A stretch of 64,000 nucleotides of DNA, from contig JBANDB010000006.1 in the NCBI GenBank assembly GCA_037576215.1, positions 372,001-436,000 of the forward strand. Reading direction: 5' to 3'. Of this stretch, positions 1 to 59,044 are shown piece by piece (positions within the stretch are counted from its first letter, which is position 1; every line of letters starts with the position of its first letter). A program made the position numbers and the translations under genes. Source of the stretch: Armillaria gallica. Its lineage: Eukaryota > Basidiomycota > Agaricomycetes > Agaricales > Physalacriaceae. The notes beneath the pieces are model-generated. The model saw only the letters and a program-made list of their open reading frames with translations. It ran no database searches and was not told where the DNA came from.

Positions 1-204
1 TCGAGGTCAGTTTCATCTTCTTACACGTTTGAATCTTTATTCACACTGAACATAGGGACTTGATCATGACGTATTAAGTTATTTTTTTAATGAGCTTTGC
101 CGCGGCGGCAATCTATTCATTCCTTTTGCTTTATTTACAGTATCTGTAAAATTGCTTATAATCACTACCTTCTTTTACACCGTATCTCTTGTCTACCTCT
201 CATC

Positions 205-8897: not shown

Positions 8898-8989
8898 TTT
8901 CGGGTGCATCGGCCATACTAAAATAGGAAGGCTCTCACCATGGGTAGACCTTCTTTTCAAGCAAGGTAATGCAAAATTCCTGTTGAGCC

Positions 8990-28916: not shown

Positions 28917-30176
28917 TTAGTATCTGGACGGGTGATAACATTGGCGATCCACACCTTTTACAGCTGACAAAGTGGGAGCTACCACCTCAAGAGGGGCTTT
29001 TGGCATTTTGGATTGAAGCCGGGCATGCAGTTCCTCGTCCTTTCGGCGTGTACGTTCTATATCGTTCTGGATTTTAGCGTTGACACGTTCGTGGTATTCT
29101 GCCTCAATTCTACACGAAAATCAGGATCGGGAGATGCGTCTGAGGATAACGGTTAATTGACATACCTTTTCAAAGCTTCCAGCTCACGGAAGAAATCCCA
29201 TGGGTCGTTAATTTGTTCCACCGATTCCAGATTATTCGATACAACTATCACGGGTTTAGAGTCCGCAGAAGGCCGGCTGAACATGCTGAGGGCTACAATG
29301 GGGTCGAAAGATAGCGTCGAGGCGTTGTCGTCGTCGTCGTCATAGATATCTGCGCGTAGACACGGTATACAGGGAAGGATCTTCCCAAAGATCGAGCGAA
29401 GGAAGGACGATATGGTGAAAGGTCGTTTTTATTGGACTTCGCCAGTCTCCCCAGAGTGTCGGTCTTCAGCTTCAGTGGTCAATTGAAGGGACTTGGTGTC
29501 ACAAAGCGAGTGGCTTTCGGCGTCCTACAAGGTGGGAAGAGGCAAATCAACCGCAGAAGCTTGACGCTCATCAAGCTGATCAAGGGTAGCGTCGTCCTCC
29601 ATGGTGTCAGGGGCCGATTCAGATATTTTCTCCTTTTGCAGAATATCTCTGCGGTCGGCATCATCGTTGAAGTACTGCTGGCTTAGACGAAGACGATCAG
29701 GGACATTCAATTTGTGCTTGGGCTCAGGCCACGAGCCTCCGGTGTTGGTATCGTTTTTGATGCGACATCGTGTCACTGCCTGCGTAGGGTGGTAGCAGTC
29801 TGACCAAGGCAGCGGGTTGCTAGGCTTCATCGGCAAACGGGAGAGTGGGTGAGAGACATTGGGTAGAATGGGGGCCGACATGTCTGGTAGAATGAAACGA
29901 TCTGGGTTACTGATAGGGAGGCCTTGCGAGACCAGAGTCACAGCGATGTTGATGTATTCAACGCCAGGCAAAGGGAAGGAGAGGAGCTGATAAATGGTGG
30001 AAATTAGTAGAATGCACGCGACGTAGGGCAGGCCGACGTACGTTAATGATACATGCAACATAGCTTTTGCTCTCCAAAGCTTCACAAGCCTTTGTCACTG
30101 CGGGATCATACAGATGTTTGAGGGAAGCGACGGGGTCGAGTTTGAGAACGATGTATTCTCCAAAGCGAGGGAGCAT
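28917..30176 (-). pseudogene. Family P2 copy A, two in-frame stops
   Basis: P2 is an unnamed family with six copies in this window. Copy A starts MLPRFGEYIVLKLDPVASL at 30176. After one intron it reads LLSFPLPGVEYI, PDRFILPDMSAPILPN, PLPWSDCYHPTQA.TRCRI and WPEPKHKL, then an acidic variable region, LPCIPCLRADI, PVIVVSNNLESV, INDPWDFFRELEALKR, and after the last intron IEAEYHERVNAKIQNDI and ELHARLQSKMPK, ending at 28917. Two stop codons lie in frame in the variable region (after VDLPLPTL, about 29543, and after GETGEVQ, about 29433), while both sides stay in the same frame and match the paralogues. Probably recently inactivated. The upstream region has the P2 promoter block. Confidence 0.8.
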
Positions 30177-30240
30177 GGCGGAGTATGATACGCGTTCCAA
30201 ACACGAAGACCCGAAATATAGAAAGGCGCCATATTTTGTT

Positions 30241-32872: not shown

Positions 32873-33112
32873 CCACATCGTTGTTGCCAATCCCTCAATC
32901 AATTCCGAGTACATGCAAATGGTTGATAGACACGATAAGATTATAGGTCGGTGTAAGCGAATATGTGAGAGGTGATTAAGATAATACACTATGAGAAGTG
33001 GTGAAATTAATGAGCGTGGAAGGTAACGCGAAAAGAATGGCTCGGGGAAAAAACCTCAGTAAGATTAAAACCTGAAGACAGCTAGATTAAGCATCAGTAT
33101 CAGGCTTTATAT

Positions 33113-34327
33113 CTACGACAGTCTGATTAGCCTCATGCAGGACATGGGGGTATTTCTCCACACACCTTTGACAGAAGACAATATGGTATCCTCAGCCGAA
33201 GACTCGCGTTTTGGCATTTTTGACTGAAGCCGGGTGTGTAGTTCCTTATCCTTTTGGCGTGTGCGGTCAATGTCAGCTCGGAGTTTTGCCTTCATTCGTT
33301 CATGGTACTCCGCTTGGATGCTACAAAAAGTTCAGCACATTTGTTTGAACAACGGATGTCAGCTAGCGTACCTCTTCAACGCATCGAGCTCGCGAAAGAA
33401 GTCCCACGGGTCGTTGATCTGCTTGACGGATTCCAGGTCATCCAAGACGTCTATGACTGGCATGGTGTCCGGAGGAAGCGTGCCGAATAAACTGATACCC
33501 CAGATTGGATCGTCCGAAAAATCTTTGACGTCGTCATCATCCAAACGTGTGCGTATACACGGCACGCAGTGCGAAACCTTCTTGATGAGCCCGCGAAAGA
33601 GTTTGGACACCTTCGAAAACCAGGTTGACGGTGCCGGTAGAGTATCGTCGACTATGCTGGCTGGACGAGATTGAAGGCTTTCACCGTCATGTTCAGAAGG
33701 AAGCGGCAAGGTTACCACGGAAGCTTCACGCTCGTCCGGATGGTCTTCAGTAGCACAGTCATCTTCAGTGAGCGGCTGGTGTTCTTCTTGAAGAGCCTGT
33801 TTGCGCTCAGCATCCTCCCAGCAGTAGTCTTCAAGAAGGCCGTCTTCCGTTTCCAGCTGATACTTGGGATTTGGCCACGGGTTGCCAATGGTGAAGTCGT
33901 TTCGGATCCGACACCTTGTCGTAGCCTGTGTTGGGTGAAAGCAGTCTGGCCAAGGCAGAGGCACGGTGGGATTGAGTGGCGCGCGCGACAACGGGTTGGA
34001 CGTGTTTGGTAAGACTGTTACGGCCATGTCTGGTGGGATGAAACGATCGGGCTGGCCAGGAGAAAGACCTTGAGAGAGCAAAGTCATGGCAACCTGTATG
34101 TACTCGACGCCGGGAACAGGGAGACATAGAAGCTAGAAAAAAGATAAAGAGGTCAGCAAAATGGATGCTGTGAATAATGTTAATGAACGCACGTAGGTAA
34201 CACAGGCGACATAGGTCTTGGTCTCCAGAGTTTCGCAAGCTTTTTCCACCTCAGTATCCTTCAAAGATTCGAGAGAAGCGACGGGGTTGAGCTTGAAGGC
34301 GATGTATTCTCCAAAATGAGGGATCAT
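33113..34327 (-). CDS. Family P2 copy B (intact), unknown function
   Basis: This is the only fully open P2 copy here and the reference for the family. Exons: 34327-34193, 34133-33372 and 33320-33113; introns of 59 and 51 nt. The product is about 365 residues and begins MIPHFGEYIAFKLNPVASLE. Conserved blocks: CETLETKTYVACVTY, LPVPGVEYI, PDRFIPPDMAV, PLPWPDCFHPTQATTRCRI, WPNPKYQLE, then a variable acidic stretch, HCVPCIRTR (Cys pair after a hydrophobic helix), PPDTMPVIDVLDDLESVKQ, INDPWDFFRELDALKR, and a charged, probably coiled C-terminal helix ending RLQSKMPKR. No signal peptide or known domain is seen. The Cys pair next to a hydrophobic segment could be lipidated, which is a guess. It stands head to head with P1 copy 2 (358 bp between start codons). 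Confidence 0.8.
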
Positions 34328-34686
34328 GACTGCAAAAGAGCAAGGTGAGGAGATTGGATATTCTTGCTGCGTGCTTCACGCTCGAGTTTAAGTCCCAAAA
34401 TATGAATGTCGCTGAGTTTCTCCATTGTTCTTGGAACAAAGGCACAACACGCGAATAAAACAAGAATAACGTGGGAGGTCAAGTTTATCCGGCAACTGCC
34501 GAGGGTACAATTGAGCGACTCAATTCTCTCGATCCTTATTTGTCGCTTATTGTCCACAACCAACTGTGACTGACTTATCCTCCTACCAGGTTACTTGATC
34601 TGATATATATATATAAGTGTTCATGTCTTTTTTGTCCAATCCATGCTTGCCACCCACCGCGTCTTCTTCCGTTTCCGAGTTACAGC
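34328..34686. promoter_or_regulatory. Shared divergent promoter of P2 copy B and P1 copy 2
   Basis: These 359 bp separate two start codons facing away from each other. A dyad, CCATTGTTC (34422-34430) and GAACAAAGG (34434-34442), lies 96 bp from the P2 start and is followed by GAATAAAACAAG. Near P1 there is an alternating TA run (34605-34615) about 75 bp before its ATG, a probable TATA box, and a CT-rich leader. The dyad is shared with three other P2 promoters. Confidence 0.6.
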
Positions 34687-36419
34687 ATGCCATCCTCTAT
34701 CACTATCATTCCTCGAAAGGACCCTCCCCCCAAGTTTCCAGCAAAACCATGCTGCGGTGACATCTTTGTTGTCGAAGAATCTCTGACAATCCCCTTTCAC
34801 AAACTACTCGCAGTAGCGGTGAATACCGCCTCCATCAAAACAGCAGTGACCCCAGCTTGTCGTAGAATTGTCGAAACTATATGTTCTTCTTCGCGTTTTT
34901 CGGAGAAACTGGGTCGTCGACGTCCTGGAATCTTATGCCATGCTCCGCTTGGAGCAGAGGGCGACACCCGGCCCTGGTTATTTCTCATGGGGACCTTTGA
35001 CGGTCACGACGAAATTAATCTTCCTCAAATATACCAAGACTTTGCGATCACCGTCTGTACTGATACAACCCGGGATGGGGAGGGCAAGTTTACCATACGA
35101 ACGTCTCCTGATTGGCGCATGTTCCCTCCAACGAAGACCCAGTGGGTTGTCGTGATACCCATGTCACCGCAGAGCGGAAAGCTTCCGGTTGAGCGATGGA
35201 TCTCCTTTGGCGACCAAAACATACCTTATATGATAGAGCCATCTGAATTCGCTAAGCTCACAAAGTACAGCAGAGGAAAGCTGGAAGAGTTCACTGGAAA
35301 GATTATGAGCGACCGAAACTATCTCACCAAGGTCGCTAAAGATATCCAGAAGCACGAACTCAAGGTCAGTGTTTCTCATCTTTTGCTTCAAACTCTGCAA
35401 TGACCTTGTTCTCGTATAGTATCGAGCTCAGAAGAAACGTGAATATGCTTCTAGTCGTAGGTCATCAGCTCAAATGCATCACCTGCAGCAGGGAATGCGG
35501 GTCCGTATCCTGGCTTCTAAGGACAATCTTCCTTCTAATCACGTCTAATTTTAGTCCATGCAACTCACCGACTTCACCAGCATCGGATTTGTCAGTCGAC
35601 TTCTACCACCATCATCCTCACGAGTCACCGTTCTTCGGGCTCCTCTTTCCCTTTCTTGTGCTCTTGGGTGTTCGTTGTTCCCGTTTCCGTGTGTCATTGT
35701 TTCATGGGCCCGAGCTCCGCTGCTGGTGCCGCATTGTTTCTCGAAATGGTGTGCGGCACTGTTGCACTTGTTCGGTGCTTGCGCTTTGTTGTTTCCATGG
35801 GCCCAGGTTCTGCTGCTCCTGCTGCAGCACTTTTTCTTGGATGGCGGCGTGCTTGACTTGGTGTTTGCGTTTTGTTGGTTCCGTTCCATAGGCCCTGCCG
35901 TTCCTGCTGCCCCGCTGTTCTTCGAAATTGTGTGCTGCAACATTGCGCGTCCTTGGTGCTTGCGTTTGGTTTCGATCGTTCCCGCCCTGCCAGTTTTTCG
36001 GTCCTCTATGTTGCTCGTTGGTCCGTGCATATGGCTGTATGTTTCACAGTGTCTCACCTTACATGACCACATCCACTTATGACGTGTTACTTCGGAATGC
36101 GTCGCTGGTTCTTTGTGTTTTTTTTTTTCACTTGTCCCTATAACACTTTAAATCCATGAGACGCCCTTGGCTGGCAACTGAGGGTATCACAGCGGCATGG
36201 AGTGTTGTAGTCTGTGACACGTTTAGTGGCGGCACAGAATCCCGGCGTTCCTTTTTGGGACCTTGTCCGGTTATCTAACTATCTAACTATCTAACTTTAA
36301 TTTCGAAAGATACGAGTCTTATTCCTCCTGTAGGACCGCGCATCAATGCAGCGCTCATCACCTGGCAGGAAGCCCGTTGCATCTGTTTATAGTAAAGCTT
36401 CCACGCGTGTGGTCCTTTA
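34687..36419 (+). pseudogene. Family P1 copy 2, last exon split by repeat R
   Basis: This is the clearest P1 N-terminus: MPSSITIIPRKDPPPKF, GDIFVVEESLTIPFHKL, CRRIVETICSS, GRRRPGILC, RPWLFLMGTFDGHDE, LPQIYQDFAI, W.VVIPMSPQSGKLPVERWI, FGDQNIPYMIEPSEFAKL, YSRGKLEEF, DRNYLTKVAKDIQKHELK. Introns follow at about 35367-35421 and 35501-35555, with a basic exon YRAQKKREYASSRRS between. The last exon begins SMQLTDFTS at 35556 and is interrupted at 35627-36311 by repeat R. The exon resumes to GRKPVASVYSKASTRVVL and TAA at 36419, matching the end of copy 1. Without the insert the exon is in frame except for a TAG at 36331-36333 where copy 1 has CAA/CAG (Gln). Function unknown; not secreted, no membrane segment. 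Confidence 0.8.
35627..36311 (+). mobile_element. Repeat R copy 2, retroposon-like insertion with 7-bp target duplication
   Basis: The 7-bp sequence ACGAGTC occurs on both sides (35620-35626 and 36312-36318). Removing the insert plus one repeat joins SSSRV to the rest of the P1 last exon in the correct frame, and the P1 relic at 9.4 kb shows the empty site (TGAGTCTT). The shared core with copy 1 is 35668-36295. The element ends in a (CTAA/CTAT)n tail and a short unique piece; it has no inverted ends and no gene of its own. This is the pattern of a SINE-like retroposon. The long open frames across it on both strands are by-products of its internal repeats. Confidence 0.8.
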
Positions 36420-36588
36420 ATCTTGTCTTCAAGGCTATCTCATAATTTATTACTATGTTATCTAATTCCCAGCGTCGCAAAGATCGTGCAGCCTGAGTCT
36501 TCCAGTTCTGGACCGTTATGTGAAACTACGAGATGACGTGTCTCCATTTAAAGACTCGTGTTCAAGGGACATTTTTGCTTGCAGTCGA

Positions 36589-36855
36589 GCATCTAGTCAT
36601 CCTTTTGTTGGGCGGATTCAATAGCGGCTTCAGTTTTGGCATTGACATGCTCGTGATATTGTTCTTCTATTCTGCGTGATGATAAGCGTATGCACGATGA
36701 TGAGATGGAATCACAAACCTTTTGAGAGCGTCCAGGTCGCGAAAAAAGTCCTATAAGTTGTTGCCTTCTTGCACCGAATTTACATCCTTTGACACGACTA
36801 TCACTGGCATAGTGTCCTCAGGCAGAGGGCCGAATAGGTTACTAATGACTACATA
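36589..36855 (-). pseudogene. Family P2 relic (copy C), 3' end only
   Basis: Only the last two exons remain: FGPLPEDTMPVIVVSKDVNS then a degenerate NDPW site (NNL-stop) followed by DFFRDLDALKR, an intron, and IEEQYHEHVNAK...QQKDD with a premature end at 36589. The stop replaces the conserved Trp. The fragment joins directly to the 3' end of the damaged PAF-acetylhydrolase-like gene. Confidence 0.75.
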
Positions 36856-36921
36856 TGGATGAGACTAGTGGTTCGGGTGAGCCAAATTTATTTAATACTC
36901 AATCTAACAAATGGCACATGC

Positions 36922-38196
36922 TTAATGTACAACAATGTTACCAGGACTTCCATTTATATGTCTCCTCGGCCGTCCATTGTTCCACTTCCCAACGTACTCA
37001 ATCTCCATTTCTGCCATTAGTTCAGTGTTCAAAGTGTCGTTCAGTTGATTGTCTAAGAACGCATTGGAGAGCCGTGCGATGATATCCATGAATCTGAGGC
37101 TGGTCTTAGTCCGAATACATGGCAAGAGAGGGTAATCAGAAAACGATTCATGTCTGGCGCGCGAAGATATCACAACTCTGCTTACTGTAGTGCAGCCTCC
37201 AAATGAATGCCCGGAAAAGGTGATATTTTCAACGCACTGTACGGGTTCGGGCCCGTTTTCGTGGGCCGACCAACTGTCCCAGTCCACAGCAGATCCGTCG
37301 ATAGTTTCTAGTAGTAAATCCTCATCTTTCCGTACAAGTGAAGAGAAGGCGGAATGTGCAAGGTATACTTCATGCTTCCGAAATGTCAGCTGGTCCTTCC
37401 TGAGTGGGAATAGACAATCAGACGGCGGGTGGTCCCGTTCCCATCTATATAAAGTTCAAATGTCAAGACTTTAGCATTTTGTTGTACGACTCACCGTACG
37501 TCTTCCTCTCGCAAATATCTTACTACTCTTGGTGTACGGATATTGTCGGTAATACATTTTCTGGTGGTGCAAGCAGGCGCAGTGCCATCTCGATGTTCAA
37601 TGGCTAGGACAACATGCCCTGAAGCGGCTATCCGCGAGCATATCTGACTAAGAACAGAATCATCAACGTTTGATTGCCAGGGAAACAATGATGAGAATTG
37701 ATGGTTACCTATAAGCGGTACTGCTGCCTGCGAGTCCATGAGAAACGATGACCAAGGACCATTGCTTCGTTCGCAGGAGCGGGGCATTGCGATACACAGG
37801 AACCTGTATTCACCTGACCATGCTAGTACCTGAATAAATGCTGCAAATAAGTACACAAACGCCCACAGAAGCCATGACGGGAAACGTTCTGTCTGAAGAT
37901 GAGCGTAGGACATGAAGCTATTTGCACAGAGGCCTACGTGAAGCAAAATCAACAAAACCACGCCATGTTTCGTTCAGAGGTCTGTTTAACCAGTCAATTC
38001 CGAGTCTCAGTGTCCACGATTTATCAACCATGTCAGCGGGATAGTACGCGGTGAATGCGACTTCGTCTAGGACAAGAGCAGGCTGCCCATTGGGCAATCT
38101 TGCAGAGCCGTATATGCGAGATGGTCTCACGGGAGTAACAAAGGTCGTTGCACCGACAGAATAGGGATCATGGCAGTCAGGAAGATGGAAAGGCAT
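36922..38196 (-). pseudogene. PAF-acetylhydrolase-like alpha/beta hydrolase, internal deletion
   Basis: PAF-AH type II-like enzymes are Ser esterases that hydrolyse short sn-2 acyl groups of phospholipids. The start is MPFHLPDCHDPYSVGATTFV at 38196. Diagnostic pieces: a hydrophobic segment (PSWLLWAFVYLFAAFIQVL), the SRIAASGHVVLAIEHRDGTAPAC strand, YLREEDVR, and GHSFGG with the nucleophile Ser (about 37200). The family normally has, between the nucleophile and the FSDYPLL region, a segment with LDPW and the catalytic Asp; here HSFGGCTTVSRVV runs straight into SSRARHESFSDYPLLP, so that segment is missing. Ser and the His of HESFSD remain. With the Asp lost, activity is unlikely. Intron borders in the N-terminal half are uncertain. 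Confidence 0.65.
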
Positions 38197-38447
38197 CTAT
38201 GATTGCCGTAAGCGCAGCTGTCAGCGTTCATAAAAGACCGAGCAATTTTCTACGCTGAAACAATCAATAATACTCTGAGCAAGTGTTAAACGAGCCTTAG
38301 CATTTTCTTATGTGATCATGTGACGACTTGCCCGAATTGTGGGAGAGAATGCACAATATAACATTAATCATAGATAATCATCCCCAGGACAGCATGGAAT
38401 TGGCTGTATTTCTTGGTTCTTCAGCCTTTTGTCGCACGAGTTCAATA

Positions 38448-39543
38448 TCAGCACTTCTTTGCTTTCATTCGCTGGTAGTACTCCGCTTCGATTCTAAGAT
38501 TGTCAAATAGTCAGACTCTACATCCCGGCAATGCTAAATGGTTGACATACCTTTTCAAAGCATCCAGTTCACGAAAGAAATCCCAAGGATCATTGACTTT
38601 TTTGACCGACTCCAGATCATTCGATACAATCACCACTGGAATGCTGTCAGCGGTGACGACCGGGGCAAACGATGATGTCGAGATATCATCGTCTTCGTCA
38701 TAGGAATAGGCCGGAGAATGGGAAAGACGGGGAACCTTCACGAACAGTCGGTGGAAAAACGACGAGACGGGGAAGCGTCTTCGAAAAGCGATCAGTAGTT
38801 GAGAACTACCAGCATCCCTACCCAGGCCGGCTGGGTAAGAAGTCCTGCTCTTGTCTTCGCTGGCTGATCGACAGTACGCGTTCTCGATGTCCTCCTCAAA
38901 CCAAACGGGAAACGTATCGTTGGATCTTCGACACTCGTCAGACTCATCATCGGGAGATGCTCTGCCAACAGCATCAATGCCACCACTGGATGAAACATCT
39001 TGTCCAAGTCGTAGGGCATCCCTACGGTCAGCATCCTGGCGAAAATACTGGTCGAGGCGAAGGCGATCAGTGGCGAGCTCCATTTTATATTTGGGTTCTG
39101 GCCATGGATCGCCGACGTTGGTATCGTTTTGGACGCGGCATTTTATCGTTGCTTGTGTTGGGTGGTAGCAGTTTGGCCAAGGAAGGGGATTGGAAGGCTT
39201 CATTGGCGGTCGCGAAAGTGGGTGGCAAGTTTCCGGTGATATTGGCACAGACATGTCGGGCAGAATAAAGCGTCCCAGGTCACCGTTAGGAAGGCCCTGT
39301 GAAACTAGAGCCGCAGTAAGGGATACATATTTGGCGTCAGGCAAGGGGAAGGAGCAGAGCTAATGTATATTAGTGAGGTTAACACTCTGGAGTAGACGAT
39401 GAACGTACATTGATAACACATGCAATATAAGTCTTACTCTTCAATGCTTTGCAGGCCTTCAACACCGCAGGATCGTTCAACGATCTGAGCGAAGCAACAG
39501 GGTCCAGTTTGAGAACGACGTATTCTCCAAAGTGAGGAAGCAT
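38448..39543 (-). pseudogene. Family P2 copy D, C-terminal frameshift
   Basis: The start is MLPHFGEYVVLKLDPVASLR at 39543. The order matches copy B: CSFPLPDAKYV, GRFILPDMSVPI, PLPWPNCYHPTQATIKCRV, WPEPKYKME, a long acidic region, PVVIVSNDLESVKK, VNDPWDFFRELDALKR. After the last intron it reads IEAEYYQRMKAKK and stops at 38448; shifting by one nucleotide continues the paralogous ADIELVRQKAEE. The conserved RLQSKMPK end is therefore lost. The Cys pair seen in other copies is also absent here (SHSPAYSYDED). It could still make a shortened protein. Confidence 0.75.
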
Positions 39544-39619
39544 GAGGATGGTGAAGAGGAAAGGTCAAGCATTTGAATTCACATTTGTTGGCTTATATGA
39601 ACACTCTGCCTTTGTCCCC

Positions 39620-39660
39620 GAGTACCATTCGAGAGAACAAAGGCTAGCGACAAAGGCATG
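39620..39660. promoter_or_regulatory. P2 promoter block, copy D
   Basis: ACCATTC (39624-39630) and GAACAAAGG (39635-39643) followed by GACAAAGG correspond to the dyad of copies A, B and E, about 83 bp from the copy D start codon. The left half-site is degenerate. Confidence 0.4.
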
Positions 39661-39910
39661 GTGGGCAACAGTTTGAAAGAGGCGCCGGCATTTGCCGACT
39701 GTGAGACGCCGCGCGTGACGCATCCGCTAGCAGGCTGGACTGAATTATTACTTGAACCATGGCCAAGCCTTGTCTTGCGAATTTTTTTCTCAAAGGGGGG
39801 AATGATGACGGATGCTAGAGTTTCCCGCTCGGAGAAAAAGGTTAGAAATTTTGAAAGTATTCTATAGTGTTTTACTATGAGTATGAAATAAGTACGCAGA
39901 AATCTATAAC

Positions 39911-42053
39911 CTACATGGCAGCTGCAGGTGTGGAATGTCCAGACTTCTGCCTCTTCTGCGCCGGCTGAGCATCATCCGAGTCCTGCCGGGGCCGCTTGGT
40001 ACTACCTCCTACTGCGAGTTGATCTTCCGCGCCATCATCTGAAGGCCATCCGTCCTTGCTAAGGGTCATTCGCCAGAAGGCTTCCAGGGCTCTGTGATCA
40101 CGGAATACAACCTTTTCAAGGTCAATTGGTGGTCTGCGAGGTCTGGGGAAAATCAGGAATAACTCTGATTCCAAGTCGGTATCCGGTGGATGTGAGAAGT
40201 CCCTCCACTCGCGGATGGTAAAGAGAGCGTTCTTCGTCCAAGTGTCAAAAGGACCGCAGTCAAATTGAAAATTCTCGCCCAGACATCCCCAACGATTTGC
40301 CAGACCAAACTTCTCGACACCTCCGAAAAACTTCCCATCACCCAAATCTATGCAGGAGTCAAAGATATAGGGTATAAGGCTCCGGAGAACGGGGCCGACT
40401 TTGCTGTGCTGTAAGTAGTGGAGGCCGTGATATAGCGTAACCCAAATGAAGGATTCGAAATCGTCTTGGGATAGATGCTTCTGGGATCCGTCTGCAAGAA
40501 GCCTGGTAGATATGAATTGCCATGTGCCCTTTGCGTTGATGAGAAAGGGTAAAAGATCGAGTAAGAGGCGAGCACTAACCGTGGGCTTAACTTGTGGCGT
40601 TGCTTTGTCCAAGTCGTCTGCGTGTATAGCCATATCCCAGTCGTTCAATATGCCACGTCCTCCACCATCGTAATTGTCCTTTGGCGCCTTATCATCGTAT
40701 ATGGTCAAAATGTTCCCACTGCTAACATCGCGATGAAGAAACTTGCAAATTGTAAAGGCATTCTCATGAGCTAAGGTCAAAGTTATACCAATGAATGTGA
40801 AGGTCAACTTTCAAACATCGCCACTCACCCAAAAAAGCTTCGTATACAATTCTCATAAGCTGTTTCGAGGACTTGAAGTGACTCGGAGGCCGCCCAACCT
40901 CTTCTGTTAGGATCCGTTGGTGTTCACGGATGCAGAAGACTGGGGGATATGCTCTTAGGTTCCAGTCTTCGTTGATATACTTGTGGGAGGTAGTCGTCTG
41001 GCCGAGAATGACACCACCACAGACAAGAGTAGGGACATTTCGGACACCAGCGTCACTGAGGGTCTTCAGCATCTTCAGTTCGTGAGGCAGACTGGTATCC
41101 CGCCAAGTATCTTTGAAGAACCCAAGAGTTCCGGTCTTCATATCGTATACAGGAAGACCCAAAGTTGTTCTTCCCGGTATGCCTTTTGGTATAGCGATGG
41201 CGGGACCAGCAATAACCTCCCTTTCGCTGCCACCATCTGGCACGCGAATCTTCACGAACGTTGGGTAGCACTTCCGATAGATCCGGGGTCTCAGAACCGG
41301 TTCTGAAAGCGATGTTTCCTCGTCCGTGGCCGGTATCACTGTGTCGTCCATGCCTCGACCGCTATCTGTCAACGCATAAAACCAGTACAGAAACCCGATG
41401 AAATATTTGCCTTCTGTCGAGAGATCGAACGCACACGATACGACGGTGTAAGTTCTCTCCCATTTGAAGAAGCGGACGCCATCCAGTCCAAGACTAAGCG
41501 AGAACAGGTGTTTGCGATATTGCGCGTTCAATATCCGAGCAGCACAACTAGCAAGCCGATCGAGGTAGGCACTTGAAGACTCCGTCTCTAACACCCGCTC
41601 ATTCAGGTCGTCATCTTTGAATCCACAAAGAGAGGATGAATTTCTGAATTCCAGCCCGAGATCCACTTTATCCCATCGGGTGGGACTGGTTTGTATGTCG
41701 AGACCAGAGTTGTAGACAAAAGCGTCAGTGACAGTGCTGTAGTCCGAACCATGTTCAACATTTTTGCACTCCTTGTCCAGAACAATCGAGAAGGCGGGAG
41801 AGAGCTCTGATGTTACGGCTTGAATCACGCTGGCCTGAAAAGTATCATCAAGACGTCAACCGTCCACAACCAGTAAACTCACGACCGCTTTGGCGTAGTC
41901 CTTATCACTGGGATATTTTTCGGGTGATTTGATCGACTGAAAGTTGTCCTGAAGGTGATTGGGGGAGCCCAGAACGAATTGACCATCTGATGATCCCATA
42001 AGGTCCTGGAAAAATAGTCCAACTGGCATAGGCCCGATCCAATGATCGTCCAT
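39911..42053 (-). CDS. FunK1 fungal-type protein kinase (intact)
   Basis: An eukaryotic-like Ser/Thr kinase of the FunK1 family, with a fungus-specific N-terminal block. I choose MDDHWIGPMPVGLFF at 42053 as start. Introns lie at about 41835-41884 and 40772-40828, plus a 51-nt one near 40533-40583 that is a multiple of three and open, so it looks like coding sequence but separates KPT from GTWQF. Catalytic features: HRDVSSGNIL (catalytic Asp), ILNDWDMA (metal-binding Asp), GTWQFISTRLL, and SQDDFESFIWVTLYHGL. The C-terminus is a nuclear-localisation-like basic stretch (KRPRQDSDDAQPAQKRQKS). All motifs are present and no break is seen. Confidence 0.85.
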
Positions 42054-42473
42054 TTCTTTCAATCTTTTTGTCAAGTGAGTTATCAGATTCTTGTGGAGAG
42101 TAATGCGTTTATTTATCTAGTGTTTAAGAAAGAAACCTGAGAAGATATTAGCCACACTATCCTTCGCAAGGCAAGAAACAGGTACCGGCTGTGACTCGTT
42201 GGCTGCTGTTTGTCCTGAGGGCAGTAAGTTCAATGAAAGTACAATCAAGGGCAGATGTTTATGAGGAAGCAATATTGCCACCCTCCAGTGTTTGGTACGA
42301 ATGAAAACACATGGCAGGCGACGGTGTCCTGAGACCAAAAATAGACACCCACGATCACGTGGTTGCATAAGGGCAGGCAATCTGGCGTTCGCCGTTAGAA
42401 TTAATAAGTAATATCTTGCTAAACTCGTCCCTCTACTCTGTTCTACCCAAAAACAAAAATTCAAGTTGCATAA
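42054..42473. other. Intergenic; promoter side of the FunK1 kinase
   Basis: A 115-codon minus-strand frame (42117-42464) has no family resemblance. Nothing else can be supported. Confidence 0.4.
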
Positions 42474-42860
42474 CTAGAGGTCCTTCTGGTCCTTCTGGTC
42501 ACTCCTTTCAGCTCTCTCACTAGCTCTCTCACTACCACCACCGCATCTGAGCCACTGAACTAGCAACTCTGCACTGCTTACTAGCCATCTTGGGACTGTG
42601 GTGGCCATGAAGGGGCTCAGGATGTAGAACAGTAGAAGAAGCCCAGAGCCTGAGGGGATAATCCACCATGCCATCCCATGCCAGCGGAGGGTCCAGTCAT
42701 CGTTGTCGCCAAAGACCATGGGTTGTCCGACAACAATGTCTCTTCGCGCGGTGAAAGTAAGAGTCCAGATATTGAAGGCAATCACACATACTACTAGCAA
42801 GAAATAAAACATTGTAAATAGCGACAACACATATATACTACACAATGTCTGCCTTCCCAT
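42474..42860 (-). CDS. Possible small membrane protein overlapping the 7-TM copy d end
   Basis: A 128-codon frame starting MGRQTLCSIYVLSLFTMFYF has two or three hydrophobic segments (LFTMFYFLLVVCVIAFNIW; AWWIIPSGSGLLLLFYILS) and a C-terminal charged repeat (SERASERAERSDQKDQKDL) produced by short tandem repeats in the DNA (GGTCCTTCT and AGCTCTCTCACT units). It overlaps the last 23 bp of the 7-TM copy d coding region in another frame. No family recognised; it could be a real gene or a chance frame. Confidence 0.3.
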   Translation of the reverse strand: MGRQTLCSIYVLSLFTMFYFLLVVCVIAFNIWTLTFTARRDIVVGQPMVFGDNDDWTLRWHGMAWWIIPSGSGLLLLFYILSPFMATTVPRWLVSSAELLVQWLRCGGGSERASERAERSDQKDQKDL

Positions 42861-44180
42861 AGTTCCTGCTTTGCGAGCCTTCCTCTAAGCCTTCCTCCAA
42901 GTCCGACGGCGTTGGACGCAAGGACAAATCGTCCTCAACATCTGCTCCAGTGCTACTGTCTTGGCTGATTGAATGATTTCCGAACTCAAGCGACGACACT
43001 GTGCTTCTCGAATCACCCCAGCCATCGTCTGGGCGTGTATGCCCTGCAGCAACACGGCCGACCAAAATTGTAGGTACAATTCCCTGAAAAGCGGCATCTG
43101 AGTAAGGTTCACATCAAAAAAATAGGACAATTACCCTCATCTCGACAGCTATGGATGTCAGATAATTTCCAACATTCTCATTGTGAACTTCGAGCGCCAA
43201 CAGAACGACAATCATGGCAGAATAAAGAGCGGCAGAATCCACCATGACCTCTATTATTCCGCGGTATAAACGAATTCCTGTAGCAATGCCGCTGACTTTG
43301 AGGATGCGGTACACGATAAAGATTGTGCACCAAATCATAGTGGCTAAAATGAGCGAAGAATAGAGAACAGCCCAGTTGACAGACTCGAGGGCATAAAGGA
43401 ATGATGCCGACCCATTATCGCTGTCCCACTGGGAGAAATTATAATATAGTACGAGGCCCCTGCTGACTGAGTTTATAATGAGTTCAAGACGGAATCATCT
43501 CAGTGTATAGTGGAGAATTGCTACTAAAGGCTTACCGACTCCCAGAGTAGTGCAAATAGTTGGAACAAGCACAACACGCCAAGACCGCCCCCAAACAGTC
43601 CAGCAGCGCCAGATCTAGAATGTTATTCTAATTAAGTTGGTTATACACACAGAAGGACAGGGGTCTTACTAGAGAGGTATCGGCGAGGATAGTGCAGAAG
43701 CAGGCAGCCAGTGCCCCGATGAAGTAAATTGCAGGAGATGGGTTGAATAGAGTTTCGTATCTTGTCCAAAAGTTTTTCTCATTAATGAATGACTGGGCCA
43801 ACGGTATCCAGGTACTGAGTGTGCCGAAAGTCGTGAATATGTATAGAAGCAGGATAATGATTAGGAGGAAACGCGACCCTCGACCATGTAGACGATTTTT
43901 GCTCTGGGCTGTGTATGATTGAAAATTAGACGGGATAAGACCCGGGGAGGCAGAAGGCATATACCGATAGTCCACAAGGTCGTCACCATTACTCCTGTGT
44001 AGAATCCTGGGAAACGAGTTAAGTCGCAGGCAATCCATCCTGAAGCAGACCTTCCTGACCGTGCCATAATAATAAGAGGATCGTGCTGTTTAGTTGTGTA
44101 TCCAGAGCCTGGTATATATTCCTGAGTTGGGTGCTGGTTAGCTCTGGGATATCGGACGCGGTATGAATCCCTGTGGACAT
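42838..44180 (-). CDS. 7-TM membrane protein, family copy d (intact, most divergent)
   Basis: The start is MSTGIHTASDIPELTSTQLR at 44180; upstream ATGs exist but this one aligns with the other copies. Exons carry FYTGVMVTTLWTI, FLLIIILLLYIFTTFG, IYFIGALAACFCTILADTSLV, IWRCWTVWGRSWRVVLVPTI, YSSLILATMIWCTIFIVYRIL, GIIEVMVDSAALYSAMIVVLLAL and PTILVGRVAAGHTRPDDGW, then an acidic tail (LRPTPSDLEEGLEEGSQSR) to 42838. Frames join cleanly across short canonical introns. The GRVAAGH.RPDD signature is kept although the rest has diverged, suggesting a functional constraint at the end of helix 7. Confidence 0.8.
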
Positions 44181-45951
44181 TGAGGCCTCAGGGGGAAATT
44201 GAAGAAGGAATAATGCTTGCTTCTCCCAAGTTTTAAACATTTTATACCGACCGGACATGAAAATTTTCTCTTCAAGATGAAAGTTGATGACACTCCACAA
44301 CAAAAAAGATGAACATTGAGAGAAAAAACACCGCGTTACTGTGATACTGAAGGCTATGTCAATACAGTCTGGTACCTGCAGTTTGAGAAATCTCGGCGCC
44401 TTCCCTGGGATGTCGAAGGAAGAAAAGAAGAAATTTGAGCGTTAAAATTCCTCCATGGCTGACGAAAGGTAGAGAGCACTGAGCTGTCTGAGAAAGCAAG
44501 CAGTGAATGAATCTGTGCAAGGCATCTCATTGACGACATATAGGCAATCACTAGTTCCTGACCAGTGGCCAGTTAGCGATGAAAACGGAACTCCGCAGAG
44601 AGTGTTTTTCTCCTGAAGGAAGTGATAATACCAAAAATGGATATAACACTACGAACAACTTACGAACAACTTACTTGGCGACACTGGGCTATGATATCAG
44701 GGAAACTTCGGTCCAATATGACAGTCATTTAGTACCGGATCGCATGAGAGACATCAGCCACCATGACTCGACATTCGAGACTACTTTTTTGAAGTCATAT
44801 ACTATTGTCAGTACAAGCGAGACCAAAGCATGGTGAGAACATACCAAAAGTTCCTCATCCACGATATCTTCACATACATTGCTTCGTGTTGTACATGAAC
44901 TAGATTGTGACTCATTACTCAGGTGACTCGTTAATGCCCAGGAAAGGTTGAGTTGTAGAGGTGATTGAAACGAGAATCATCACACAGGAATGCTGTATCG
45001 TGGCTTGAGCTTGGACCTGCATCATATGATGGCAGTATAGTAGCGACACCGAAACAAGGATATACATGAGAGCATATCCTGCATAGCCCGGCCAGAACAT
45101 CGTGGGCAGTGTCAGGTCAGCCATAGATAAGGAGTAGAGTCCAAGAAAGAGAGCCCAAGGTGTGAAATTTTCTCGGTAGAAGAAACGACGGTGAAGGACC
45201 AGAGCTGAGAAAAATGGCCCATCTTGAGGCGACTCTCCATCTTGTCCCCATCAAGTTCGTACCTTGAAATCACAGAATCTTAAGTAGTAGTCTGTAATAT
45301 TTTATTCAAGAGAGTGACAACGGAGAACGTTCTGTGAAGAGAAGTATCGAGTATTAGTTGTAGCGAAGGCAGCCGCTCGGGAGTCAGTCTAGAGATCGCG
45401 AAAGATCGTGACATGACGTACCGTCTTCCGGTCCGTCCGGTCCTCTCCTTCGGGGCAGGCAGGCGGCACTGCCGCGGCAGGCACTCCTTCTAGTACTACC
45501 ACCGGTACCGGTCTAGGTTCTACCACCACATCTAAGCTCAGTTCGTTGCTGGTAATAATGTCCTCTGCCTCGTCACCGCCTGCGACACTCGCTAAAATTT
45601 CGACTCAGTGACGAACAATCAAGGATCAGAGTATCGGTCGGCGCAACAGAGGCCCGACACAAAACATCGTGATACCCTTCCGCTTGTCTTGGCATACTCA
45701 TACTCTGAAAGGTGAGTTTTAACAAGATAGTGCCATCGATGGAGTTGACTGGGCCTTGTTCTATACAACATCTCAACTACGCCATTGTTGCGCTCTTGTT
45801 TTTTTCCTACCCGAATTTTCTCCTGCTTTTCCCCCTTGTGTTGGCTCTCTCTTATAAAGCTTTTTTGAAGGACGAAGCCAGCATATTTATACTATCACCT
45901 CTGTGTTACCTCTGTTTATCTTCTTATCTCTATCCCGCAATACTCAAAGGA
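44181..45951. other. Long gene-poor stretch
   Basis: No gene supported. A minus-strand 69-codon frame at 45124-44915 (MADLTLPTMFWPGYAGYALM) is hydrophobic and could be an exon, but no partner exon was found. A CCATTGTTG string at about 45781 resembles part of the P2/P1 promoter block upstream of P1 copy 3, but alone it is weak. Confidence 0.4.
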
Positions 45952-46810
45952 ATGTCAGCTAACTTTCGCTCTTCGAAACTGCGCGCTCCCCCTCAGAATC
46001 AGCCATTATTTGCAAATGGTTATCAGGCCAGTCGGGTCAGAAACCTTCCAGCCCATGGAGACATCTACGTCGTAGATGAATCTCTTATCTATCCGTCTCA
46101 GCAGCTCTGTACCACCGCACTTCAAGTGAACAACGGCACAATACCATCTTCGCCTAGGTGCCAAAATCTCCTCGAAGAATCCATTCGCTCTTCTCAGGCA
46201 AAAGCCAAGTATCGCGGAAAACGTTGACCTGGTGTCGCATGTTCCGCTCCCGACATCCATGGATTCCGACCTTTTAGCGAGTCAGCTCGCCGTCTTTGGT
46301 TCTTTCTCATGGGTACTTTTGACGGCAGTGATGAGAACGCGCTCCCTTCTGTTCTTAGGGATTATGCCGTTCTTGTTTCCACGGACAGGGTTTCCGTACC
46401 CGAAAATCCGGACGTATTCCATATTCACACCAGTCCCGAATGGCAGACGTCTGGCGCGTCTCACCAGTGGCTGGTCATCATTCCGTTCTCTCCCACAAGC
46501 GGTAAAGTACCTGCTGGTCTCTGGATGCACCGCAACAATGAGACCTCAGAAGAAACACTATTCTGTGCCGCATGACGAGCAATTGAAGCTGGTTGAGTAC
46601 AGTCGTCATAAATTAAAGGAATCTACGAGCAGCGTATCATACGATACAGCTTATCTAAAGACAATGGCAGAGCAATTAAATGCTTGCACAAAGGTAATTT
46701 GAATCATCTCTGTGCCAGCAGGCAATTAAAAAAGGTCATTTAGGGCAGCTCATCGAGTCGGCATACTAGCACGAAACATACGAGGAAGACCGTCAGAAGT
46801 ACCAGGCCGT
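45952..46810 (+). pseudogene. Family P1 copy 3, stop codon and frameshift
   Basis: The start is MSANFRSSKLRAPPQNQ at 45952. P1 motifs: HGDIYVVDESLIYPSQQL, LLEESIRSS, GKR-stop-PGVACSAP, WFFLMGTFDGSDENALP, VLRDYAVLV, IHTSPEWQ, W.VIIPFSPTSGKVPAGLW, then, in another frame, SVPHDEQLKLVEYSRHKLKE and DTAYLKTMAEQLN before a donor at about 46694. The TGA at 46225-46227 lies where copy 2 has the second Arg of GRRRPG, so CGA to TGA is the simplest change. A second break (frame change) lies near 46540-46560. It points towards P1 copy 4, which is on the opposite strand. Confidence 0.75.
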
Positions 46811-47274
46811 CTGTGAGTATACAATGCCTGGGTTTCGTAGATTGCAATGTCTAACTTTCAGTCTTCAGGTCGTGCCATCTGTTAAATCCTCAATGAAGAG
46901 TGTACTAGCAAGGAGATTCGCGTTTAAGGACCGCGCTCCATCCCTGGCTAACTTACATCTTCGCGCGATTCTTAGCTGCTGATCTATACATTGAATCTTA
47001 TCGGTTGGTGGATAATTATCCACATAGATGGTACCCCTCAACTATCAAAGTCGGAGACGATGAGATTTCCTCGTATTACCGTGTAAATCCACTCGCTTCT
47101 GAACTTCACAGGCATTGGTACATTGTACTAGTATATAATTAAACAACTTCCAAGTTACGATACTGCCAGACACAGTTATAGCAATACACGAGCTGAGCGT
47201 TTGCTAGAAACAGAAGGCGCAGACTTGTTTCGGGACGATGAATCACCCATGGCACGATACTTCGAAGTACAGCC

Positions 47275-48249
47275 CTATATAGCACTAGAGATCAGAGACG
47301 TAGCTTCCTGAGGAGAGATGATTTGACATGCAGTCATTGTGTTTGTTGAATCGTTCAATCGCACGGACTAAAATAGAAAGACAATTGCATGATGAGTAGC
47401 AGACACGAGGTGCGAAAACCGACCTTCATCGCCTGCTCAAGTTGCTGAACGTTGGAATGGACTGTCCGCTGACTAGCGGCATAGGCCACCTGTTTCCGAC
47501 GGCGATACTGGAAATTCACGTTGAGATCCCCGGAAGTAGTAGGATATAAGCAAGCGTGGAAGTATTTACCTTGGTTTCCTCATTCTGGAGCTCTTGTGCG
47601 ACTTTTTTGAGGTAGTCACGTTCATCGACGAGTTTCTGGAAAAAATCATGTAGCTTCGCCCGGCTGTAGTCGGTGAGCTTCTTCAGTTGCACAGGTTCCA
47701 CTGTGAAGGGAACGTTCGGTGGCCCATAATATATCCAACGTTCTGTGGGAATCACCCCGGTTCTTGAGGTCAAAGGAAGGGTAATACACCACTGAGTCTT
47801 CTCGGGATCAGAGGTTTGCCATTCTGGGACCGTACGGACGTAGAATTGGTCTTGGTCTCCGTCCTGGATAGGTCCAGTAGCGACGATGACGGCAACTCTT
47901 TGTATACCTCCGGGAGCGTAGACTCGTCATGACCGTCGAAAGTCCCCATGAGAAATAGCCAAGGTCCAGGTTGACCATTGGTTTGGGGAGGAGGACGACA
48001 AAGTATACCTGGCCGTGCTTTCCCTCGTGGAACACCTTTCTTTGACAAACGAGAAGAGCATATGCTTTTAACGATTCTTCGACACGCGGGGGTTGTTCTG
48101 ACGGTGGCTGTCTCCAGCGCTGTCATGCACAGTTGATGAAAGGGATGGGTGAGGGACTCGAAGACAGAAAAAATGTCGCCATAGGGAGGTGGGCCAGGAT
48201 TCTTTTGGGGAGCGTCGGCTCGGGGAACGACGGTGACGGAGAATGGCAT
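47275..48249 (-). pseudogene. Family P1 copy 4, complete gene with one 1-nt frameshift
   Basis: The start is MPFSVTVVPRADAPQKNPG at 48249. Motifs: YGDIFSVFESLTHPFHQL, CRRIVKSICSS, ARPGILCRPP, GPWLFLMGTFDGHDEST, LPEVYKE. One nucleotide later the frame changes and continues with AVIVATGPIQDGDQDQFYVR, TQWCITLPLTSRTGVIPTER, WIYYGPPNVPFTVEPVQLKK, YSRAKLHDFF, DERDYLKKVAQELQNEETK, an intron, YRRRKQVAYAASQR, an intron, and SVRLNDSTNTMT...SSAI with stop at 47275. The break is at the short T run after GAG (about 47900). This is the only P1 copy whose full exon set is uninterrupted by other DNA, so it shows the family is about 300 residues. It is head to head with P2 copy E, 331 bp apart. Confidence 0.8.
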
Positions 48250-48581
48250 GAACAGAGGACAGAAAATAGGAATTGACTAGCATTGTCGAAGCAGCTGAGA
48301 CCATACATTATATGTATTCTCAAGGCAACAGTAGATGCAGAAAAACGGACTTAAAAATGTGTGAGCGTGGTGGCAGTTGCTCCGATGGGATCGATCTCGG
48401 CAAGTCCCGGCTACTCTTTGTTTCTACCGTTCGGCACGGTTCAACTTGTCTTATTCCTTTCTTGTTCCTTTCTTCAGTGGACAATGAAAGAAAGTATGGC
48501 AGGATCATATGTTTCAGTTAAAATGGGCCCTATCATCTCTCAACTCTCATCACCCGCTATTCCTCTGCATTGCTCGACACC
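48250..48581. promoter_or_regulatory. Shared divergent promoter of P1 copy 4 and P2 copy E
   Basis: On the minus strand, CATTGTCC (from 48486 leftwards), then GAAGAAAGGAACAAG, then GGAATAAGACAAG (to 48445) match the block in the other divergent promoter, in the same orientation relative to the genes. CATTG begins 96 bp from the P2 start codon, exactly as in copy B. Confidence 0.6.
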
Positions 48582-49870
48582 ATGCTTCCTCACTTTGGAG
48601 AATATATCGCGTTCAAGCTCGACCCAGTCGCTTCCCTCAAGGCCCTCAACGATCCTGAAGTTACAAAATCTTGCGAGACCTTAGAGACGAAGACCTATGT
48701 TTCCTGTGTAACTTACGTGTGTTGAATTGTTAATTTGAGCACTTATATTAACTGACAGTCGTCGTTTCTTAGCTCCTCTCCTTTCCTTTGCCTGGCGTCG
48801 AATATATCTCCGTGTCGATGACTCTTCTTTCAAAAGGTCTCCCTAAGGATGTCCCGGATCGTTTTATCACGTCGGACATGTCGGTGCCCGTATAATCCGC
48901 TTTCGCGACCACCACTAGAACCGAGCATGCCTCTTCCATGGCCTGACTGCTACCATCCAACACAGTCCAGGATGCAATGTCGTGTTTTTAACGACGTCGT
49001 CATTGGCGGAGCGTGGCCCGAGCCCAAGTATGGACTGAGCAGCCACGACCAGGTCCTCCTTGATGGAGATTATTTTGACGACGATTCTAACCGCAGGGAA
49101 TTCTTGAAGACGGATAAAAAACCATCAAGTGATTCTAGCATAGGTGACAATGTTGCAGCCGAACGCAAAACACTGGAGCGGGACACAGAAAGCCAATACT
49201 GCCAGTCGGTAAGCGAAGGCGCGAGTCAGTTGTCTCTCCCGGTCGGCAGTCGAGACTCTTGTTCGGTGCTCGATGCTGAAAGCCAACATTCCAACGAAGC
49301 GAGTCAAAGTCATGACACTCAGCCAGCACCTGCTACCGTATCTACTTTCATTCTCTCTTTCCTTTCAAAGCTCCTCCCATGCATACCGTGTCTACGAGCA
49401 GACATCGACGACCATGAAGAGGTTGCATCGATATCACCTTCCGATCCAATCTGGTCCCATCCCGTCTTCGGCACACGCCCGCCCGACACCATGCCCGTCA
49501 TCACCGTGCTGGACAACCTTGAGACGATAAAACCCGAACAGATCAACGATCCCTGGGATTTCTTTCGAGAACTAGAGGCTTTGAAAAGGTATGATTGTCG
49601 TGCTGTGTTCCGGAAACTCTTCGCTGACTCTCTTAATTGATAGAATCGAGGAAGATTATAGCGAGCGAGTAAAGGCAAAAGCTCAAGCTGCGATTGACCG
49701 TGCACGTCAAAGGGATGAAGAGCTCAATGCTAGGCTTCAATCAAAGATGCCAAAGCGTGTCTCTCCACCAGCGGAGGCGGTGAAGCTACCTCCTTCCAGT
49801 TCGGCAGGTATGCAAATTTACTATGACTTTGATATCGCTGAACGTAGCTGAGGATGGTGACATAGACTAA
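48582..49870 (+). pseudogene. Family P2 copy E, 14-nt deletion
   Basis: The start is MLPHFGEYIAFKLDPVASLK at 48582; the first intron ends at 48772. The second exon reads LLSFPLPGVEYI and DRFITSDMSVPV and then breaks at about 48890: compared with copy B, about 14 nt (the LPNT region) are missing, shifting the frame. After that all blocks are present: NPLSRPPLEPSMPLPWPDCY, HPTQSRMQCRV, WPEPKYGL, the acidic region, LPCIPCLRADI, PPDTMPVITVLDNLETIK, INDPWDFFRELEALKR, an intron, IEEDYSERVKAKAQAAID, LNARLQSKMPKR, and a short last exon ending at 49870. The long downstream open frame suggests the deletion is recent. Confidence 0.8.
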
Positions 49871-53934: not shown

Positions 53935-54490
53935 CAACAGGAATTTCCGCCGTCTCTGTTTGCAGACTCAGAGAGATGCGCTTTGGCATCTTTGAATGAA
54001 ACTTAGATCCCCTTGACGTGCACGGTCGATTGCAGCTCGAACTTTTTTGCCTTCACTCGCTCGCTGTAATATTCTTCGATCCTGTGAATCAGGAGCCTCA
54101 GTCTGTGAAGAGTTTTCGAAGCACGCACGATAATCATACCTTTTCAAAGCCTCTAGTTCAAAAATAATCCAGGAATCGTTGATCTGTTACGATTTTATGA
54201 TCTCAAGATTGTCCAGCACAACGATGACAGGCAGGGTGTCCGGAGGACCTACACCGTATACAGAATGAGACTGGATTGTATTGGAAGGCGACATCGAGTC
54301 GACGTCTGCTCGTAGACACGGTATGCACAGGAGGAGCATTGAGATCACAGAGAGGGGGAAATTAGATGCAGTAGCAGGTGCTGCCTGAGAAACACGGCCA
54401 TGACTTGCTCCGCTGACAGATTCGTAACCTTGGCTTTTAGCGTCGCGCACCGAAGAACAGTCCTGAAGCATGCTACTGAATCGAAGTTTC
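53935..54490 (-). pseudogene. Family P2 relic (copy F)
   Basis: Only the 3' half remains: LLLCIPCLRADVDS, GPPDTLPVIVVLDNLEIIK, a stop, QINDSW then a damaged DFFREL (FELEALKR), an intron, IEEYYSERVKAK and a decayed tail at about 53980. Closest to copy E by eye (shared VLDNLE and EQIND). Several stops and small deletions make it clearly non-functional. Confidence 0.75.
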
Positions 54491-55110
54491 ACTGATAATT
54501 GATAGTATTAGCTTTCTGCATCCTGCGTGAACGGTAGAGCCAAATTAACTGCTTGTTGGATACATCGGCAGTGACATGTTGTGTAGTGGCTCTTGCTCTG
54601 TCTTCAAGAGCTCCTGCGGTCAGAACCCTCGTCACAGTGTTCTCCGTCAAGGAGGACGTAAACATTCGTTCCATCACATAATTGAGCTCGGTTCTCTGGT
54701 ACAGGCAAAAAGCTGAGCAAGGAATCGCCAGAAGTGCTTGAAGACTCACTAGCACCCGTACATAGTACTCTGACTATCAACATACGCCATTTTTTGCCGC
54801 TAGGATTTTATGGCTACCTCCGCCTGTCCCCATTGCAACAAGTTGATATTCAGAAAGCTCCAATATTGAAAGGTAGCATGTGCTGGACCAGAATATAGAA
54901 ATGGAAAGCTTGTGCCCTATTCGGCGTTTTACATCGCGCTATTAACGTTGGAGAATATTGATGAGCAGGATGCCTAGCTTGACGACGCAAATCTTGTTTG
55001 TCTCCTATTCGCTGATATAACTACAGCAATGCCAGAGGTACTCAGACTCCACGGCACGCATACACCTATAAACGTAGCTTTAACATCAAGGACGACATCC
55101 TGAAATTAAG
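54491..55110. other. Intergenic, no recognised gene
   Basis: A minus-strand frame at 54755-54489 (LNYVMERMFTSSLTENTV) has no family I can name. Nothing else seen. Confidence 0.4.
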
Positions 55111-57629: not shown

Positions 57630-58179
57630 AAAAACGGCATACTTTCTTTTCATGATCACTGAGCTCTTGGACGACCATTGGCAAATATCTGCAGTCTACT
57701 ACGACTTTAGATAAGAAGTCGTTCATCGTGCTGAATTGTGTGAAGATGTCCAACTGGGGTGGCTCGATTACAACAGGCATAGTAATTTCGCCCTCCTATT
57801 CCTTTGAATCCCGGTGAGTCGGCGTGAACAGCGGATTCTCTTTAAATGCGAGGGAGCGACACCTCGTCCCGACCGCCAAAGGTTCCCGTGAGATATAGCC
57901 AAAGTATGGAAGGCCCGGGGGGACTTCCGAGGATGGTCGGAGGAAGACAAACAACTCCGGTCGATCTCTCCTGCGCCGGCCTGTCGTGATAGATAACCTG
58001 GAAGGAGCACACATACCGTGGATGATGCTTTTGTTGGCGGGAGTGGTTTCAATGGAAGGGGCTTTCATGGCAGCCAGAAAGAGCTGATAGTAGAGCTGAA
58101 GCAGAAATCCATCGACAAGAAAAGTCTCGCCATAAGACGGTTTGAGCGTGGCATCTTCGTTATGGGGGATGCCAACCAC
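57630..58179 (-). pseudogene. Family P1 relic (copy 5), divergent and decayed
   Basis: MVGIPHNEDATLKPSYGETF at 58179 leads into YGETFLVDGFLLQLYYQLFL, IIHGMCAPSRLS, GRRRRDRPELFVFLRP and FGYISREPLAVGT, which align with the P1 order (GDIF..., ICSS, GRRRPG, PWLFLMGTFDG). Then comes a deletion, and VIEPPQLDIFTQF, NDFLSKVVVDCRYLPMVVQE, LSDHEKK before a donor, matching IEPSEF...DRNYLTKVAKDIQKHELK. The MGTFDG core is degraded and the middle third is missing. This extends the P1 family to 58 kb. Confidence 0.65.
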
Positions 58180-59044
58180 GGAAAGGACATGAAATCACAG
58201 GAGAGATTGGACGGGCAGCAAACTCCGACCCATTCAAGGTCTCATACCTTGAATGGCCGGAGCGCTGATATCGGAGATCTCTCCTCATAGCCATCACCGC
58301 GTCGGCGCGCCGCGGCCTGAACGCCTCGGAAATCTGTGGTCAAAGTAACCTAATGTCATAATCGAGTGCACATGAAACGCACCATTCTATCCAACAGAAT
58401 GCCTCAAGTGCATTGAGTTGGGCTAGGGGTGTCCTGGTGAGTAGGTATATGGCGGTTACGCACATGGCACATACAATATGAGGTGAGACGCGATGCTAGT
58501 GAGCACTGAGTACTGATCCTACGGTAGAGTGTAAGAATAGAACTATGTATCGTGTAAAGATTACGTTGAGGTGAATCTGAGGACGTATCGGACGAAGACT
58601 CTTTTGGATACTCCGTTCTGATGTCTATGCTTGTTGAGTTGCCAATTTAACCACGCGGATATTGAGTGCTGTGAGGATGCTTATAAGAACGATATCTGTG
58701 GCGGCAAATAGATCTGGTTACCGTGATGATTCCAAACAGAATGAGGCAACCGAATTTGACCGCAGATGCGAGAAGCTGTCAACGCACTCGGACGACCCCG
58801 TCCTACGAGCGAATCAAGTGTCAGTTCAAAGTTGTTACTGATGTTTCTATTACACCCCGCCCCATCTACTCCTCTTCTTATATGGCAAGCGAAAATATAT
58901 ACAGAGTTTTATGTTGAAAGCAGGAGATAGCTAGATATCACGATTTCAACATGACGTCACTCCAAGGACCATATCCAGCCGTCACGTGTCTAAGGTTAAC
59001 TCCGTCATCCGACCTGCATCTCTTCTTCCCGTCTTCCACTGTGA
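58180..59044. other. Intergenic, no recognised gene
   Basis: A short palindrome-like pair CATTCAAGGTCTCATACCTTGAATG at 58232-58256 (9-bp arms CATTCAAGG/CCTTGAATG) is the only structure noted. No exons. Confidence 0.45.

Follow-up and report, generated by a model that had tools for sequence, protein, structure and literature searches.

Mushroom mating-type loci provide a familiar example of two different genes, HD1 and HD2, that are divergently transcribed and have been duplicated as pairs in several subloci. In the toxin MazF, the arginine of an RP motif has a functional role. A third point of reference is the smut pheromone response element, given in PMC3248468 as ACAAAGGGA, which the HMG-box factor Prf1 serves. 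We found no literature on the pair of genes described below, here called P1 and P2 (preprints and most subscription journals were outside the scope of the search). The window, a 64,000-nucleotide stretch of Armillaria gallica, covers C6:372001-436000 of an assembly of 86 Mb and 28 contigs; the end of contig C16 is 99.9 to 100% identical to part of C6 where compared, with structural differences present, and is treated here as the second haplotype of the C6 region. An initial annotation had proposed that P1 and P2 were co-duplicated as head-to-head pairs, and the genome bears this out: the pair is old and repeated, with 8 of 12 P1 loci head to head with P2 and largely congruent trees of the two families. 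The arrangement is real, and the two genes are inherited together.

Two pairs lie in the window, oriented as first described. In pair ii, P2 copy B (33087..34327, minus strand, start at 34327) and P1 copy 2 (34687..36420, plus strand, start at 34687) stand head to head across a shared intergenic promoter region of 359 bp (34328..34686); in pair iii, P1 copy 4 (47358..48249, minus strand, start at 48249) and P2 copy E (48582..49848, plus strand, start at 48582) do the same across a shared intergenic region of 332 bp (48250..48581). P2 copy B is open over four exons (34327-34193, 34132-33372, 33320-33166, and 33112-33087; about 350 aa), as is P1 copy 2 (34687-35364, 35420-35500, 35555-35590, and 36334-36420; about 293 aa), the last exon of each model being assigned by eye. 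The claim that each pair has one or more broken partners holds for pair iii (48 to 50 kb), where both genes are frameshifted (P2 copy E in exon 2), but not for pair ii (33 to 36 kb), which is not visibly broken, both models being open and spliceable. A dispersed repeat sits within the last intron of P1 copy 2; window positions 20378-20997 and 35668-36288 are copies of it, 92 to 98% identical, and many more occur genome-wide. P1 and P2 have no detectable sequence in common by hhalign (E values of 0.12 and 0.35), as the initial annotation had stated. A single recent block duplication giving rise to both pairs is also excluded: the flanks in positions 30200-38500 and 43500-53900 are unlike, and gene segments alone align between these stretches (64 to 67% identity), apart from a single match of 29 bases to P1 copy 3. 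FunK1-type kinase genes (Pkinase_fungal) also lie inside the cluster (39911-41855 and 17609-18454), and another repeated gene family occurs in direct and inverted copies (D8, I1, I3, and I8) at 10354-10443, 15857-16492, and 26236-26881.

Most of the remaining copies in the window are unpaired, as had been reported. The P1 copies at 45.7 to 46.7 kb (copy 3, 45709..46702, plus strand) and 57.6 to 58.2 kb (copy 5, 57631..58194, minus strand) are broken and reduced to fragments, respectively. The P2 copies at 28.9, 36.6, 38.4, and 53.9 kb, all on the minus strand and all without a P1 partner, are copy A (28998..30176, with an in-frame stop), copy C (36596..36864, a fragment), copy D (38457..39543, with its C-terminal end truncated), and copy F (53971..54549, a fragment). 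The P1 at about 9 kb, taken at first for another free copy, actually belongs to pair i, as the 3' part of its P1 (P1 copy 1, 8971..9534, plus strand), split from the partner P2 by an insertion. This P1 is whole on C16, where positions 4594-6500 of locus L052 match window positions 8971-10876 at 99.9% and where about 970 bp separate it from its head-to-head P2; on C6, the P2 of pair i lies outside the window, at C6:341.5-342.6 kb. On C16, both genes of pair i allow an open reading, but one that requires an upstream acceptor for the first P2 intron, where the usual one is missing; the last P1 intron is perhaps retained, in frame. The Helitron-like insertion is present on C6 (from about 343.6 kb) and absent from C16; judging from contig coordinates, it would extend over about 37 kb. 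Window positions 97..8970 (plus strand) hold its Helitron-like open frames (97-6054) and its right end, near which there are four 68-bp tandem repeats (8647-8917). The pair i intergenic region on C16 also contains a long inverted-repeat (MITE-like) element (L052 3395-3935), of which C6 keeps one arm-like remnant. At C6:488 kb, the P1 of pair iv is broken and its P2 is apparently open.

Beyond the two window pairs, the head-to-head arrangement was found at six more loci, namely pairs i and iv (C16/C6) and four on C17. Eight of the 12 P1 loci are head to head with P2, two are adjacent to P2 tail to tail, and two are solitary and broken, all of these counts being lower bounds of genome searches; the eight head-to-head loci are split four and four between two diverged clusters. 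The C17 cluster was reached via P2-like matches (L057, L058, L144, and L145), and P1-like open frames were recognized by the P1 profile in the three loci scanned (L057, L058, and L144) at E values of 4.5e-6 to 9e-5; over the C17 and C16 relatives together, the P1 profile gave E values of 1.7e-8 to 9e-5, and the control loci given yielded no match. The genome contains four places for the C17 P1-like protein, and a P2-like place lies head to head with every one of them: 533.8 kb (+) with 532.2 kb (-), 540.8 kb (-) with 541.9 kb (+), 470.6 kb (-) with 471.7 kb (+), and 407.9 kb (-) with 409.1 kb (+). Start-to-start gaps in three of these couples are 387, 396, and 401 bp. A remote P1/P2 couple, present in two copies on C16 (1.534 and 1.628 Mb), is adjacent and tail to tail; the loci bearing it, L055 and L056, form an inverted duplication about 94 kb apart. 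Around a third copy of the remote P2, on C7, there was no P1-like match within the 4.5 kb examined. C10 and C11 gave five further weak P1-like matches, which were discarded; the two inspected look by eye like F-box-type proteins. Among the loci examined, P2 copies without P1 are common and no intact P1 lacks an adjoining P2; P1 therefore seems to depend on P2.

Searches of other genomes yielded at least 60 P2 homologs (8000 candidates scored) and at least 25 P1 homologs. Named P1 homologs belong to Armillaria and Desarmillaria, and the P1 profile at E values up to 1 had no named match outside these two genera; named P2 homologs belong to Armillaria, Desarmillaria, Guyanagaster, and, remotely, Moniliophthora roreri (Moror_3898). 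Nearly all are annotated as hypothetical or uncharacterized, with no Pfam domain listed for them; the chimeric model P0059 carries a heterokaryon-incompatibility name, which probably comes from its other part. The adjacency of P1 and P2 seems to recur in these genomes: Armillaria ostoyae has the consecutive tags ARMOST_16945 (P1), 16946 (P2), and 16947 (P2), and a contig of 5.5 kb carries both families if equal size means same contig. By this measure, which is weak for chromosome-sized contigs, 23 of 25 P1 homologs lie on contigs equal in size to a P2-bearing contig (longest listed size). On contigs shorter than 100 kb, 4 of 6 P1 homologs match a P2 contig in size, one such contig measuring 5,484 bp; for two P1 homologs on an 81,741-bp contig, no P2 was found sharing it.

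The P1 tree was built from all 25 hits and four rows from this genome, and the P2 tree from 50 of 60 hits (one split in two) and five rows from this genome, omitting P0043, P0049, P0050, and P0053-P0059 as partial, chimeric, or short; alignment A4 comprises 13 of the 19 P1 hits known by then, and alignment A3 comprises 35 of the 60 P2 hits. The two trees are largely congruent for linked partners, the corresponding members being copy 2/B, the C16 pair, the 488 kb pair, copy 4/E, the contig 88275 pair, and ARMOST_16945/16946; the clades of both ARMOST_16945 and 16946 also include D. tabescens, A. nabsnona, and A. novae-zelandiae. The P2 tree does not resolve how the 488, E, and 88275 clades are related, and it has no clear partner clade for the P1 clade of P0065, P0072, and P0085. 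Distances of linked partners were modestly correlated over six pairs (r = 0.455; reached by 29 of 720 permutations) and more strongly over eight (r = 0.925; 10 of 40320 permutations), two of the eight being orthologous to others. Both proteins show constraint at the sequence level: comparison of pair i with pair ii gives a dN/dS of about 0.13 for P1 and 0.18 to 0.20 for P2, with dS saturated.

The intergenic regions of seven pairs have a short motif in common. ACAAAG is present in all seven (12 observed versus 1.9 expected) and AACAAAG occurs 9 times versus 0.53 expected, neither count being reached in 1000 shuffles, a result that is partly after the fact, as the motif had been spotted by eye in five of the seven beforehand. 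When all 7-mers were counted, three, including AACAAAG, were present in six of the seven intergenics; 1 of 200 shuffled sets had any 7-mer in six. Six regions were counted without prior inspection for the motif: two of the seven pairs, the fourth C17 pair (its sequence displayed before its motif count, and its borders approximate), and the stretches upstream of three P2 copies that have no partner. All six contain ACAAAG (11 in total) and four contain AACAAAG, the window averages per 400 bp being 0.27 and 0.10, respectively. Since ACAAAG also lies upstream of the three unpaired P2 copies, it is not pair-specific. The pair ii intergenic region contains AACAAAG/ACAAAGG sites, others that are AACAATG-like, and a TATA-like stretch. 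ACAAAG resembles the smut pheromone response element (PMC3248468), and by analogy with that system the pairs may be controlled by an HMG-box factor.

Joint function is, from the sequence evidence, the likeliest reason for this joint inheritance. We see about an even chance that Armillaria and its relatives have one old two-gene system, with a divergent shared promoter, in which P1 and P2 are the two subunits. The two genes would be transcribed divergently from the shared intergenic promoter, mostly about 330 to 400 bp long, and their proteins, produced together and making contact through folded N-terminal domains (a MazF/CcdB-like barrel predicted for P2 and perhaps also for P1) as well as C-terminal helices, would function as an intracellular hetero-oligomer; a function of this kind would lead to the pairs being copied and lost as units. 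Counting against such a system are the many lone P2 copies and the remotest P1/P2 couple, which is tail to tail and indicates that the head-to-head orientation is not obligatory; the modest six-pair correlation, the ACAAAG sites before unpaired P2 copies, and the 81,741-bp contig with two P1 homologs also weigh against it. Repeated block duplication alone could also keep P1 and P2 together, an ancestral head-to-head block being recopied by segmental duplication in a repeat-rich region while the genes are functionally uncoupled. The clusters are full of repeats, broken copies, and fragments, and segmental copies are present (L055/L056); however, adjacency is kept where the proteins are weakly alike and where the flanks have nothing in common, both intact partners are constrained, and P1 seldom occurs by itself (at 2 of 12 loci, broken in each case), and we regard this neutral linkage as possible but doubtful. 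The two-subunit reading is the one we prefer: the absence of a known domain, copying as a unit, constraint, and deep linkage make P1 and P2 a strong candidate for a two-subunit device.

The predicted fold raises the question of a toxin. The P2 model is predicted with fair confidence to form a MazF/CcdB-like barrel, and P1 may perhaps do so too; the P1 model (pLDDT 40) is too poor for a fold claim, and its search results include MazF/Kid/CptN in 13 of 50 rows from Foldseek and 14 of 16 from VIA. Foldseek on P2 gave auxin response factors as top rows (E values of 0.13 to 0.17), and a PDB sequence search gave no match for P1 and five weak, unrelated rows for P2. Pfam scans at E values up to 1, covering 13 P1 and 35 P2 relatives, did not detect the PemK_toxin family (PF02452), nor did scans of further P1/P2 members at E values up to 10, and a genome search for PF02452 found none in this genome, with control matches in 3 of 14 genomes. 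No significant kinship with MazF emerged by sequence: single-sequence and profile comparisons yielded nothing significant, and scores as high as the observed one arose from column shuffling in 27 and 22 of 100 cases for P1 and in 4 and 12 of 100 for P2. P1 has an RP motif, with R in 17 of 18 rows that have letters there (of 19), whereas P2 by eye has no RP at the corresponding place. In a block test blind to P1/P2, 79 and 231 of 1000 shuffles equalled the score for P1 and 282 and 119 of 1000 did so for P2, and in this test reversed P1 alignments outscored the real ones.

A toxin-antidote pair, which may be selfish or defensive, would have a harmful P1 (or P1 complex) restrained by P2, with P1 persisting only beside P2. 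The asymmetry between solitary P1, which is broken, and solitary P2, which is common, is consistent with this, as are the MazF/CcdB-like fold of the P2 model (found unreliably in P1) and the RP motif kept by P1, reminiscent of that of MazF. We nevertheless consider it unlikely, because PF02452 has no match and the MazF sequence tests are not significant, the toxin-like fold predicted with fair confidence belongs to P2 rather than P1, and broken pairs are tolerated on both haplotypes. A more elaborate scheme, in our judgment rather improbable, is a nuclear two-part device with a MazF/Kid fold in both halves, P1 with the RP motif and P2 without it, which would work as a heteromeric, self-restrained RNA-targeting or toxin-antidote system switched on by HMG-box factors, its cognate pairs having radiated partly before the Armillaria/Desarmillaria split. 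If the fold is right, a bacterial toxin-antitoxin fold would be used as a pair in mushroom nuclei. Finally, a mating-type-like pair for non-self recognition, comparable to HD1/HD2, is suggested by the presence, in several subloci, of divergently paired genes that look unrelated, and by HMG-box-like promoter motifs, but it is highly improbable, and a mating-type HD pair proper is ruled out, as Pfam scans detect a homeodomain in neither protein, the seven Homeobox_KN places are elsewhere (on C10, C2, and at C6:1.44 Mb, away from the clusters), and the haplotypes of this one genome are 99.9 to 100% identical where compared, insertions aside.

The P1/P2 system compares with known ones as follows. 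Like HD1 and HD2, P1 and P2 are two different genes that are divergently transcribed and duplicated as pairs; unlike them, they have no homeodomain, lie off the homeobox loci, and have near-identical haplotypes. In contrast to toxins of the MazF/Kid/CcdB type (PF02452), the P1 and P2 genes are divergent rather than in an operon, are eukaryotic, and have no family sequence match, and their proteins are predicted to have long C-terminal helices and a low-confidence linker.
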